Shown piece by piece: positions 37,956 through 41,656 of a DNA stretch of 64,000 nucleotides. Position numbers and translations under genes: made by a program. Each line of letters starts with the position of its first letter. Position 1 is the first letter of the stretch. The notes under the pieces were generated by a model. It saw nothing but the letters and a program-made list of their open reading frames with translations. It was not told where the DNA came from and made no database searches. The DNA is taken from positions 2,682,501 through 2,746,500 of the forward strand of contig NZ_JAIWOU010000001.1 of assembly GCF_021295395.1 (NCBI RefSeq). The letters are read 5' to 3'. The stretch comes from Komagataeibacter sp. FNDCR2. Its GTDB lineage: Bacteria > Pseudomonadota > Alphaproteobacteria > Acetobacterales > Acetobacteraceae.

Positions 37956-39341
37956 ATGGCAGCAGGGAGTGATCATATGCCCACAGGCACCGGGTTCGGG
38001 GCGGATGGCGTAAGGCAGGCGGGCGGAAACCGTGCCTACCGGACCATCGGCATGCTGTACCTCGTCATGGCGATTGTGGCGGGCCTGGCCGGTGGGCTGC
38101 TGGCCGTAAGCCTTCAGGCCGGCCTGCTGCCCCATGCCCTGCTCTCCGCCTGGGCGGGTGGGAATGTGGCGGGTGCTGTCGAGCGTATTGGCCGCCGCCA
38201 TGGCATGCTGATGGTGTTCTTCTGCGCCCTGCCGGCCCTGACCGGCGGGTTTGGCAACTGGTTCGTGCCGCTGCTGCTGCGTGCCCGCGCGCTGGCCTTC
38301 CCGCGCGTGGCGCTGGCGGGCTGGGCGCTTGTGGCGGCCAGCTTCATTGCCGTCATGGCCGGTCTTTCACCCGCCGTGCCCGGCTGGGTTTCCGTGCTCG
38401 CGCTGATGGGGTGGTGCCTGGGCATGCTGTTTCAGGCCATCACCATGGTCGCGACCGTGCTGAACATGGGACCGATTGGCCAGAAGCTGCGCGACCTGCC
38501 GATATTCGTATGGGCGCAGGGCCTGAGCGCGATGATGGCCGTCATGGTCATGCCGGTGCTGGCCGGTGGGCTGACCCGGATCCTGCTGGCCGGTGGCGAC
38601 ATGTCGCCGCATATCGATGCGCTGCTGCACGTCTTTACCGGCCCCGAGATCGCGCTGCTGCTGCTGCCCTCCATCGGGATCGTATCACAGATCATAGAGA
38701 CATTTTCCGCAACGCCGCTCCGGATGCCGCGCGTGGTGCTGGGGGCGCTGGTGGTCATGTCCGTGGGCGGGGCCTCGGTATGGGTGCATGACCTGCTGCA
38801 TGGCGGGCTGGTGGGCATGGTCGCCCCCATGGCCATGGTGCAGCTTGGGCTGATCGTGCTGCCGGTGCTGGCCGTGCTGGCGGCATGGGCGCGTACGGTG
38901 CGGGCGGGCCATATGCGCGCCGCCGTTCCGGTGGAATGGGCCGCCGGATTCGTGGCGCTGCTGGTGGTCGGTTCCATCATGTCGCTTCTGCCCGGCGGCA
39001 TGGCCGATGTGCATGCGGCAACGCTGTACGCCGCCATGTTCGCCATGTTCGCCGGGTTCTATTACTGGATCGGCAAGATGGTGGGCCATGTCGCGCCGGT
39101 CATGGCCAGCCGTGTCCATTTCGGGCTGACGGTAGGCGGAACCGCACTGTCGCTGCTGGCCTTTCACGGTATGCCGGGGGTGATGGGGGCCGTGCTCATG
39201 GGGCTTTCCATGCTGGTTTTTGCCGGTATCGTGGTGCAGGCCGGGCTGCGCCCGGCGGCGGCGCTGCCGGATAATTACTGGGGTCCGGGCGCTTATACGC
39301 CGGAATGGCGGACACCTTCCCCCACGCGCGGAGACGCCTGA
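37956..39341 (+). CDS. Degenerate cytochrome oxidase subunit I-like membrane protein
   Basis: A 461-residue polytopic protein (about 12 hydrophobic helices) homologous to COX1 but lacking most catalytic residues. It keeps the COX1 scaffold: RHGMLMVFFCALPALTGGFG, NWFVPLLL, AFPR, MPVLAGGLTRIL and FAMFAGFYYWIGKM. Low-spin-heme ligands are retained (His82 and His353). The HPEVY motif is GPEIA (residues 229-233), losing the CuB His and cross-linked Tyr. The CuB His-His pair is His278-Asp279. The high-spin-heme His is Asp351. The D-channel Asp of APDMAFPR is Ala, and the K-channel Lys is absent. It therefore cannot be a normal oxidase. ATG 37977 (GGGAG upstream) is an alternative start. It precedes ctaB by two bases. 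Frame is intact, so it is probably expressed. Confidence 0.85.
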   Translation: MAAGSDHMPTGTGFGADGVRQAGGNRAYRTIGMLYLVMAIVAGLAGGLLAVSLQAGLLPHALLSAWAGGNVAGAVERIGRRHGMLMVFFCALPALTGGFGNWFVPLLLRARALAFPRVALAGWALVAASFIAVMAGLSPAVPGWVSVLALMGWCLGMLFQAITMVATVLNMGPIGQKLRDLPIFVWAQGLSAMMAVMVMPVLAGGLTRILLAGGDMSPHIDALLHVFTGPEIALLLLPSIGIVSQIIETFSATPLRMPRVVLGALVVMSVGGASVWVHDLLHGGLVGMVAPMAMVQLGLIVLPVLAVLAAWARTVRAGHMRAAVPVEWAAGFVALLVVGSIMSLLPGGMADVHAATLYAAMFAMFAGFYYWIGKMVGHVAPVMASRVHFGLTVGGTALSLLAFHGMPGVMGAVLMGLSMLVFAGIVVQAGLRPAAALPDNYWGPGAYTPEWRTPSPTRGDA

Positions 39342-39343
39342 TC

Positions 39344-40309
39344 ATGAGCGGCAGTGCCACCACGCCCGATGCGGCACAGAGTGCCAGTGCCGCCATTACC
39401 TATGACGCCAGCCGTGTCGGCACGCTGGCGCGGGACTGGCTGGTGCTGCTCAAGCCGCGTGTCATCTCGCTGGTGGTCTTTACCGGGGCCGCCGGTCTGG
39501 CCATGGCGCCGGGACCGCTCAATCCGCTGGTGGCCGCTGTCAGCATCCTGTGCATCTGCATGGCCTCGGGTGCGGCGGGCGCCATCAATATGTGGTATGA
39601 CCGCGACATCGATGCGGTCATGAAACGCACGGTCACCCGCCCCATCCCCGATGGCCGGATCGGGGCGGAGGCCGCGCTGGGCTATGGCATCGGGCTGTCC
39701 ACCGCATCGGTCATTCTGATGTGGCTCGCGACCAACGCGCTTGCGGCGGGTATCCTGGCATTTTCCATTTTCTTCTATGCCGTGATCTACACGATGTGGC
39801 TCAAGCGTTCGACACCGCAGAACATCGTGATCGGGGGTGCCGCGGGCGCGTTCCCCCCCATGATCGGCTGGGCGGCGGCAACGGGATCCATGGCGATCAT
39901 GCCCGTGGTGATGTTCGGCATCATCTTTTTGTGGACGCCACCGCATTTCTGGTCCCTGTCGCTATATGCGTGCAAGGATTACGGGCGCGCGGGCATTCCC
40001 ATGCTGCCGGTGGTGCGGGGCGCGCGCCATACGCGCTGGCAGATCCTGTGGTACACGATCATGCTGATGGCCGTGTCGCTGGTGCCCTCGTTCACGCATC
40101 AGGCTGGCTGGCTTTATACGGCCGTGGCGACCGCGCTGGGGCTGGGTTTCATTTACTTCGCCATTCAGGTGCTGCGGGACAGGCAGGATGCGAACGGGGT
40201 CAGCCTGACAGGGGATCGTCCGGCCCGGTATTCCTTCCGCTATTCGCTGCTTTACCTGTTCCTGCTGTTCTGTGGCCTGCTGGCCGATCATGCATTTATC
40301 GCCCATTAA
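39344..40309 (+). CDS. ctaB: Protoheme IX farnesyltransferase (heme O synthase)
   Basis: CtaB attaches a farnesyl group to heme B, making heme O for haem-copper oxidases. The 321-residue membrane protein has the UbiA-family Asp-rich motifs: AINMWYDRDIDAVMKRTVTR and IYTMWLKRSTPQNIVIGGAA (with GAFPPMIGW), plus LWTPPHFWSLSLY. About eight to nine membrane helices are visible. ATG 39344 is chosen (MSGSATT); an earlier in-frame start lies inside the preceding gene. Acetic acid bacteria respire through a bo3 ubiquinol oxidase that needs heme O, which would explain why ctaB is intact although the neighbouring COX1-like gene is not a functional oxidase. Confidence 0.95.
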   Translation: MSGSATTPDAAQSASAAITYDASRVGTLARDWLVLLKPRVISLVVFTGAAGLAMAPGPLNPLVAAVSILCICMASGAAGAINMWYDRDIDAVMKRTVTRPIPDGRIGAEAALGYGIGLSTASVILMWLATNALAAGILAFSIFFYAVIYTMWLKRSTPQNIVIGGAAGAFPPMIGWAAATGSMAIMPVVMFGIIFLWTPPHFWSLSLYACKDYGRAGIPMLPVVRGARHTRWQILWYTIMLMAVSLVPSFTHQAGWLYTAVATALGLGFIYFAIQVLRDRQDANGVSLTGDRPARYSFRYSLLYLFLLFCGLLADHAFIAH

Positions 40310-40684: not shown

Positions 40685-41656
40685 TCAGCGGGGCGTTTGC
40701 TGGATGGCGGAGAGCAGCCAGCTTCCCGTTCCGGCCGAACGCACGAATGTCCAGAGTTCGGTTACGGTGGTGCGGTTGACGGGATCCCCCTCGATCACGC
40801 GACCGGTCATGTCGGTCGTGATGTCGATCATCGAATACCGCATTGCGACCGTTGCGTAATCAAACCCGTTTTCACGCCAGCTTTCCGCCAGATCGCCGCG
40901 TTCGAAGCGGATGTCCGACACGATATTACGTGCGCCACGGCTGGCCAGGCTGCTCAACTGGTTGTTGAAATAGGAGACCATCTCCGGCGTGGCCATGTGC
41001 TGCATGGCGCGCACGTCCTGCTGGCTCCATGCCGTCTGGATATTGATCAGCGCCTGCTGGAAGGCCTGATAATCGGCGGTGGTAATGGCGACCCCGACCG
41101 GCTGCTGGCGGCCCTGCGGTGGCGCACCGGCGGCCTGCGCCATGCCCCCCAGCGGATTGCCCAGCGGGGCGGCGCCCGCATTGCCACCCATGCCGCCAAA
41201 GCGGCGGATGGCCCAGCGCACGATGAAGAAGACCAGCGCCAACTGGATCAGCAGGCCAAGAAAGCCGCTTCCCCCCATGCCTGAGCCGAACATGCCATGC
41301 CCGAACAGCATGCCGAACAGGCCCGCGCCAATCAGCCCGCCCATGAACCCGTTCATGAACGGGTGGCGGGGACGCGCCATGGCCATGCCGCCCGCCCCAA
41401 AGGGCATGCGCGAGCCGTAGCCGGGCATCTGGCGTGGCGTCATCGTCTGCTGGAAGGGTGTTGCGCCATAGGGCGCGGTCTGGGATGGCGCAGGCGCGCT
41501 ATAGGTGCGTCCCCCACGGCTTCCCATGGAATAGCCACCGCCCGCACGGGCATCGGCCACATGGGGATGGGCCAGCAGCGGCAGCATGGTCAGGGCCGCG
41601 ACGGCGGCAAGGGCGAGGTTTTTACGCGGGGTTGCGTGGGGAGAAATTTTCTTCAT
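40685..41656 (-). CDS. Tim44-domain membrane protein with signal peptide
   Basis: A 323-residue protein with an N-terminal signal-like helix (KNLALAAVAALTMLPLLAHP), a low-complexity Gly/Ser/Pro/Met-rich stretch (residues about 38-95), and a Gly/Phe/Met-rich hydrophobic region ending in GLLIQLALVFFIVRWAIRRF. The C-terminal half is a Tim44-like domain (DYQAFQQALINIQTAWSQQD, EMVSYFNNQLSSLASRG, TVTELWTFVR). Such proteins are widespread in Proteobacteria (Tim44-like, YqeY-unrelated) and are thought to bind membranes or assist protein handling; the exact role is unknown. A second Tim44-domain gene lies at the right end of the window next to secB. Confidence 0.85.
   Translation of the reverse strand: MKKISPHATPRKNLALAAVAALTMLPLLAHPHVADARAGGGYSMGSRGGRTYSAPAPSQTAPYGATPFQQTMTPRQMPGYGSRMPFGAGGMAMARPRHPFMNGFMGGLIGAGLFGMLFGHGMFGSGMGGSGFLGLLIQLALVFFIVRWAIRRFGGMGGNAGAAPLGNPLGGMAQAAGAPPQGRQQPVGVAITTADYQAFQQALINIQTAWSQQDVRAMQHMATPEMVSYFNNQLSSLASRGARNIVSDIRFERGDLAESWRENGFDYATVAMRYSMIDITTDMTGRVIEGDPVNRTTVTELWTFVRSAGTGSWLLSAIQQTPR

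Follow-up and report, generated by a model that had tools for sequence, protein, structure and literature searches.

coxL, a COX1-derived gene beside ctaB in the Acetobacteraceae, keeps the low-spin heme ligands of aa3 oxidase under purifying selection

Why would a bacterial family keep, directly before the heme O synthase gene ctaB, a COX1-like gene that has lost its site for oxygen reduction? We addressed this question with a window of 64,000 nucleotides from Komagataeibacter sp. FNDCR2 (NZ_JAIWOU010000001.1), whose own positions are used below. A 461-codon open frame on its forward strand (37956-39341) encodes such a protein, and we call the gene coxL, a name coined in this analysis. The genes needed for the argument are:

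37977..39341, forward strand: coxL, a COX1-derived membrane protein, likely of 454 aa (461 aa if counted from 37956), recognized by its open frame, PF00115 and the common MPTGT start
39344..40309, forward strand: ctaB, heme O synthase, recognized by its frame and its junction with coxL; the single match in its own genome
36937..37803, forward strand: a methyltransferase-like frame upstream of coxL, present in 109/109 loci; the name comes from reading the sequence only and no common function is claimed

coxL and its place before ctaB

The initial annotation had described an open frame of 461 codons. The frame is indeed open, but a shorter product is likelier: the Met of an MPTGT motif is common to all 19 genus members in the alignment and the codons 5' of it vary, so ATG 37977, which has a GGGAG seven bases upstream, is the more probable start and gives 454 aa. 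The protein scored 119.9 bits with the PF00115 profile (curated cut-off 34.8), placing it in that family, and 137.6 bits with the CtaD equivalog TIGR02891, far under the cut-off of 670.75. A PDB search returned aa3 subunit I chains as the closest solved structures, for example 3omi (E 1.1e-37) and 1ar1 (3.9e-33), which we take to be from Rhodobacter and Paracoccus, respectively.

We searched 100 relatives, 397 genomes of the family and a further 36 and 7 chosen genomes, and assembled 109 coxL sequences (101 first, 8 added) from 18 Acetobacteraceae genera, plus a fragment from a 19th. Among the 100 relatives, each of the 19 genomes belonging to the window's genus has an unbroken copy of the gene, with identities of 79-90% among genus members (80% for K. 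xylinus and K. intermedius). Between genera, the median identity was 26.8% (range 17.6-58.1%; 18 genus representatives). A scan of named genomes found mostly functional COX1, and coxL in three named species.

A FastTree phylogeny of 64 sequences united the 46 coxL as a single clade with support 1.0, whose sister group is 16 functional alphaproteobacterial COX1 (support for the two together, 0.92). The tree is limited by its long branches and by an outgroup of just two sequences; in it, coxL is of single origin. Of 86 functional COX1 loci, 67 have ctaB downstream in the same orientation and the other 19 have none within the available flank, and coxL therefore occupies the place of ctaD.

The tight linkage to ctaB reported in the initial annotation is real: coxL ends at 39341 and the ctaB ATG lies at 39344 on the same strand, leaving two bases between them. 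ctaB is the next gene on the same strand in 108/109 coxL loci, the exception stopping at a contig end, and the gap is ≤16 bases in 100 of the first 101 loci. This adjacency says little, because the methyltransferase gene is equally constant (109/109) and the wider order greB, gshB, methyltransferase, coxL, ctaB, with labels assigned in this analysis, is widely conserved. That coxL acts purely as a translational leader of ctaB was also considered; a junction of two bases would suit such coupling, but the residue conservation described below would be left unexplained, and we rejected this idea.

Mean protein distance across genera was 1.83 for coxL versus 0.42 for ctaB, and a divergence about four times that of ctaB is more than a close partner would be expected to show. 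Between the two genes the partial rate correlation was 0.48; coxL has none higher, yet the value is modest, and such covariation is only suggestive of a link. The highest rate correlation of ctaB (0.67) was with a fast-evolving gene beyond it on the reverse strand (40685-41656), whose position is the same in most loci where the flank is long enough.

Heme, copper and channel residues

For COX1 positions we use residue numbers and residue roles that we take to be those of the R. sphaeroides enzyme, in which His82 and His353 presumably correspond to H102 and H421. The sites considered in the window protein are:

38199..38201, forward strand: codon of His82, first low-spin heme ligand; His in 108/108 testable orthologues (CAT 66, CAC 34 in the first 100)
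39012..39014, forward strand: codon of His353, second low-spin heme ligand; His in 108/108 testable orthologues (CAT 82, CAC 18 in the first 100)
38640..38654, forward strand: GPEIA (residues 229-233), HPEVY in functional COX1; His or Tyr kept in 0/109 orthologues
38787..38792, forward strand: His278-Asp279, the CuB His-His pair in functional COX1; first His in 54/109 and second in 10/109 orthologues
39006..39008, forward strand: Asp351, the high-spin heme His in functional COX1; His in 2/109 orthologues
38412..38414, forward strand: Trp153, gained in the coxL clade, Ala/Gly in functional COX1; Trp in 97/99 full coxL and 0/9 functional sequences

Alignment to functional aa3 COX1 agreed with the initial annotation that both axial ligands of the low-spin heme are present and that the D-channel Asp and the K-channel Lys are gone, replaced by Ala and Val, respectively. 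The binuclear centre had been called lost, and the GPEIA, His278-Asp279 and Asp351 replacements were all confirmed, but two of the three CuB His are missing rather than all, as His278 remains. This residue (38787-38789) is His in 19/19 genus members and may be either a leftover or serve a lineage-specific role. The window protein also lacks about 13 residues ahead of the Asp351/His353 pair, in the loop after residue 348, and the XI-XII loop that carries the propionate Arg pair, lost after about residue 404.

His82 was testable in 108 orthologues, the frameshifted copy lacking that region, and His353 also in 108, one copy stopping at a contig end. With gaps scored as losses, H284, Y288, K362, R481 and R482 were kept in none of the 109 sequences, so for these the loss in all orthologues asked about in the initial annotation holds; it does not for H419, H334 and H333, kept in 2, 10 and 54 sequences, respectively. 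Functional COX1 served as controls and kept all nine tested positions, low-spin His pair included, in 86/86 loci. A shift of ligands in the alignment, which would have undone the initial reading, was ruled out by three alignment runs with functional controls.

Only four of 446 columns are invariant across the 107 full coxL sequences, namely H82, W186, W276 and H353, and the same four were invariant in the first 99. The chance that two sites named beforehand land among four of 446 columns is 6e-5 by a simple draw that ignores site-rate differences, and 1.7e-4 when the draw is restricted to the 270 columns that do not vary among nine functional COX1. Both CAT and CAC are used at His82 and at His353, also inside several genera, and the DNA has therefore changed while His was retained. 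Thirteen His columns are invariant in the nine functional COX1; coxL keeps the two low-spin ligands at 1.00, and of the other 11 one (aligned with His388) stands at 0.90, H333 at 0.49 and nine at ≤0.22. In coxL the low-spin heme site has been retained; the K-channel Lys and the other ligands examined are either drifting or gone. The near-invariance of Trp153 is a constraint gained in coxL, and this residue may perhaps fill room freed by the lost active site.

Matsutani 2014 reportedly put the loss of ctaD function down to accumulated mutations. The Acetobacter gene next to ctaB that is in print as a "deranged COX1-like protein" (Matsutani 2014, cited in PMC10715153) is of the same kind and from the same family, and very likely orthologous to coxL; PMC5158111 gives A. 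pasteurianus ctaB and ctaD (APT_01775) adjacent locus tags. The initial annotation knew of no described function for such a protein, but PMC10715153 prints a suggestion, the stabilization of CtaB, and states that all cofactor ligands are lacking. Whereas the printed Acetobacter protein would be without ligands and perhaps structural, our copies, whichever of them are from Acetobacter, are under strong selection and retain the low-spin pair wherever testable, and this conservation casts doubt on the printed claim. The accessible parts of PMC4013037 and PMC4007555 make no mention of a coxL-type protein, and in the literature searched, mostly open papers and in part excerpts, no account turned up of conserved low-spin ligands in such a protein or of selection on it.

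Selection on coxL and frame integrity

We estimated dN/dS in eight genera by pairwise maximum likelihood (Goldman-Yang type, F3x4, own script) on stop-to-stop frames with poorly covered columns dropped. The medians were 0.056-0.124 for coxL, 0.026-0.052 for ctaB and 0.024-0.107 for the methyltransferase. For the 72 of 181 coxL pairs with 0.05<dS<2, omega ranged from 0.039 to 0.343 and omega=1 was rejected in every case, the smallest likelihood ratio being 15.7. Values near 1 would have counted against the initial annotation; those found lie far below.

Across the portion available, 108 of 109 coxL frames are unbroken. The sole frameshifted coxL seen (L095, G377:C21) comes from G377, a draft genome 85% complete, and reflects either a sequencing error or real decay. 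Early flags of an internal TGA in G055, G136, G398 and G305 were not reproduced in a second search, and the TGA flagged in G304 is the frame's own terminating codon. When the window frame was evolved neutrally in simulation, 39% of copies remained open at 0.05 changes per site and 12% at 0.1, but none of 300 at 0.3 or at 0.5. The initial annotation had argued for selection on a non-catalytic protein retaining its low-spin site rather than random decay; the low dN/dS, the intact frames and the invariant His pair uphold that argument, and coxL almost certainly encodes a selected, functional protein.

A possible role with CtaB and the bo3 oxidase

CyoB, CtaA, SURF1 and Cox11-type CtaG were sought in 42 genomes, hand-chosen rather than random, of which 36 carry coxL. 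CyoB was found in 37 of them, namely the 36 with coxL and G019, two matches lying just under the curated cut-off. The five genomes without CyoB are also without coxL and ctaB, except for one weak 25% ctaB match in G127. G027, which has a coxL fragment, has CyoB as well, bringing the tally to 37/37 coxL genomes tested. A bo3 partnership, one of the roles floated in the initial annotation, is consistent with this co-occurrence, but it runs one way: five genomes from three genera have CyoB without coxL (G019; G025; and G111, G235 and G303, with G111 matches under the cut-off), and 37 of the 42 CyoB genomes in the chosen sets carry coxL. G025 is a draft genome with ctaB at a contig end; G049, which lacks both coxL and CyoB, likewise has its ctaB at the end of a contig. 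ctaB directly follows the methyltransferase gene, with coxL absent, in G019 (L271, G019:C7:142000-155000) and G111 (L275, G111:C9:96000-109000), which with their CyoB-type oxidases are natural coxL-free cases. Because CyoB genomes without coxL exist and ctaB is kept without it in these two, coxL is dispensable for both bo3 and ctaB, and strict dependence is ruled out by G019, G111, G235 and G303 (for ctaB, by G019 and G111).

The window genome itself has a bo3 oxidase outside the window (CyoB, L292, motifs HPEVY and AHH). It also has, outside the window, a caa3-type oxidase (L291 6245-7894; G000:C1 about 2924744-2926393) with the motifs HPAVY, GHHMF and AHFHY, and the genes beside the latter look, on reading their sequence, like alternative complex III.

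CtaA was matched in 17 of the 42 genomes, all with coxL (17/36), and the remaining 19 of the 36 coxL genomes gave no match; SURF1 and Cox11-type CtaG gave none in all 42. A heme A carrier, another role proposed initially, is disfavoured by the 19 coxL genomes without a heme A synthase match. Judged from its ligands, coxL probably binds one low-spin heme; with CtaA absent from many coxL genomes, this would be heme B or O.

Known proteins act close to the step at which such a protein could work. According to PMC9145763 and PMC12224909, SURF1, CtaA and yeast Coa2 act at the handover of heme by CtaB/Cox10 to subunit I; coxL is likened to these by its putative function and not by sequence. PMC9145763 names heme O synthase as the only specific factor known for the assembly of E. 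coli bo3, and PMC12224909 says that in mitochondria the passage of heme from Cox10 to Cox15 "remains to be demonstrated". CyoB, subunit I of bo3, belongs to the coxL superfamily and is the likely user of the heme O made by CtaB; it is a separate gene, with HPEVY and AHH.

We tentatively favour, as the best overall explanation, a retired ctaD kept as a single-heme protein that works with CtaB and bo3. coxL resembles aa3 subunit I (CtaD/COX1, PF00115, TIGR02891) in its fold family, its sister clade, its place before ctaB and its low-spin ligands, and differs from it by lacking the oxygen-reduction site, the cross-linked Tyr, the K-channel Lys and the XI-XII Arg pair. It would thus be the family's old aa3 subunit I, still at the ancestral site before ctaB, which shed the heme a3-CuB site, the K-channel Lys and two loops and was retained as a membrane protein with one bis-His heme (B or O, not A) between the His82 and His353 helices. 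The absence of the propionate Arg pair and of the capping loops counts against this picture. As an ex-client of CtaB, it may still take heme at the low-spin site, presumably the one first filled in COX1 maturation, and hold it or hand it on, so that it could act together with CtaB in the synthesis or delivery of the heme O that bo3 uses. Gene order, the one-way co-occurrence and the weak rate correlation make a role linked to CtaB/bo3 conceivable, if short of probable. That coxL is a heme courier and not a mere stabilizer is doubtful, and so is the fuller picture of family-wide single-heme cytochromes derived from an oxygen reductase, in which coxL would carry or hold heme B or O for or from CtaB in the service of the replacement bo3.

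coxL might instead be an independent redox or sensor protein, whose one heme, more exposed now that two loops are missing, would exchange electrons with quinol or a periplasmic partner or sense the redox state or a ligand. The single bis-His site, the losses after residue 348 and about residue 404 and the purifying selection would all suit such a protein, and ctaB and bo3 exist without coxL, as expected if it had a separate job; however, every coxL genome tested has bo3 (37/37), and coxL is missing where ctaB and bo3 are missing, which fits assembly better, and we consider this explanation unlikely. Flanking genes were compared only against the window's own neighbours, which leaves room for another partner gene of coxL.

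The stabilizing role suggested in PMC10715153 would make coxL a scaffold for CtaB in the membrane, its His pair conserved for the sake of the fold, whether or not a structural heme is present. The presence of ctaB beside coxL in 108/109 loci and its rank as the top partial rate correlation of coxL agree with this, but a scaffold does not explain why, of 13 His columns, just the two heme ligands are fully invariant, and ctaB is kept without coxL in G019 and G111; we regard it as rather improbable. A decaying remnant, open by chance or through linkage to ctaB translation, could account for the lost catalytic residues, the fast evolution and the frameshifted draft copy in G377, but is very hard to reconcile with a dN/dS of about 0.1 in eight genera, 108/109 unbroken frames, the universal His pair and the absence of open simulated copies at 0.3 changes per site (though 12% at 0.1), which together rule out a pseudogene.

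If one heme is bound, as we favour, coxL would be a natural half-oxidase: a heme-copper fold with the electron-entry heme and without oxygen chemistry, maintained by selection in many genera within one family. In that case it would also offer a genetic handle on how heme O exits from its synthase.
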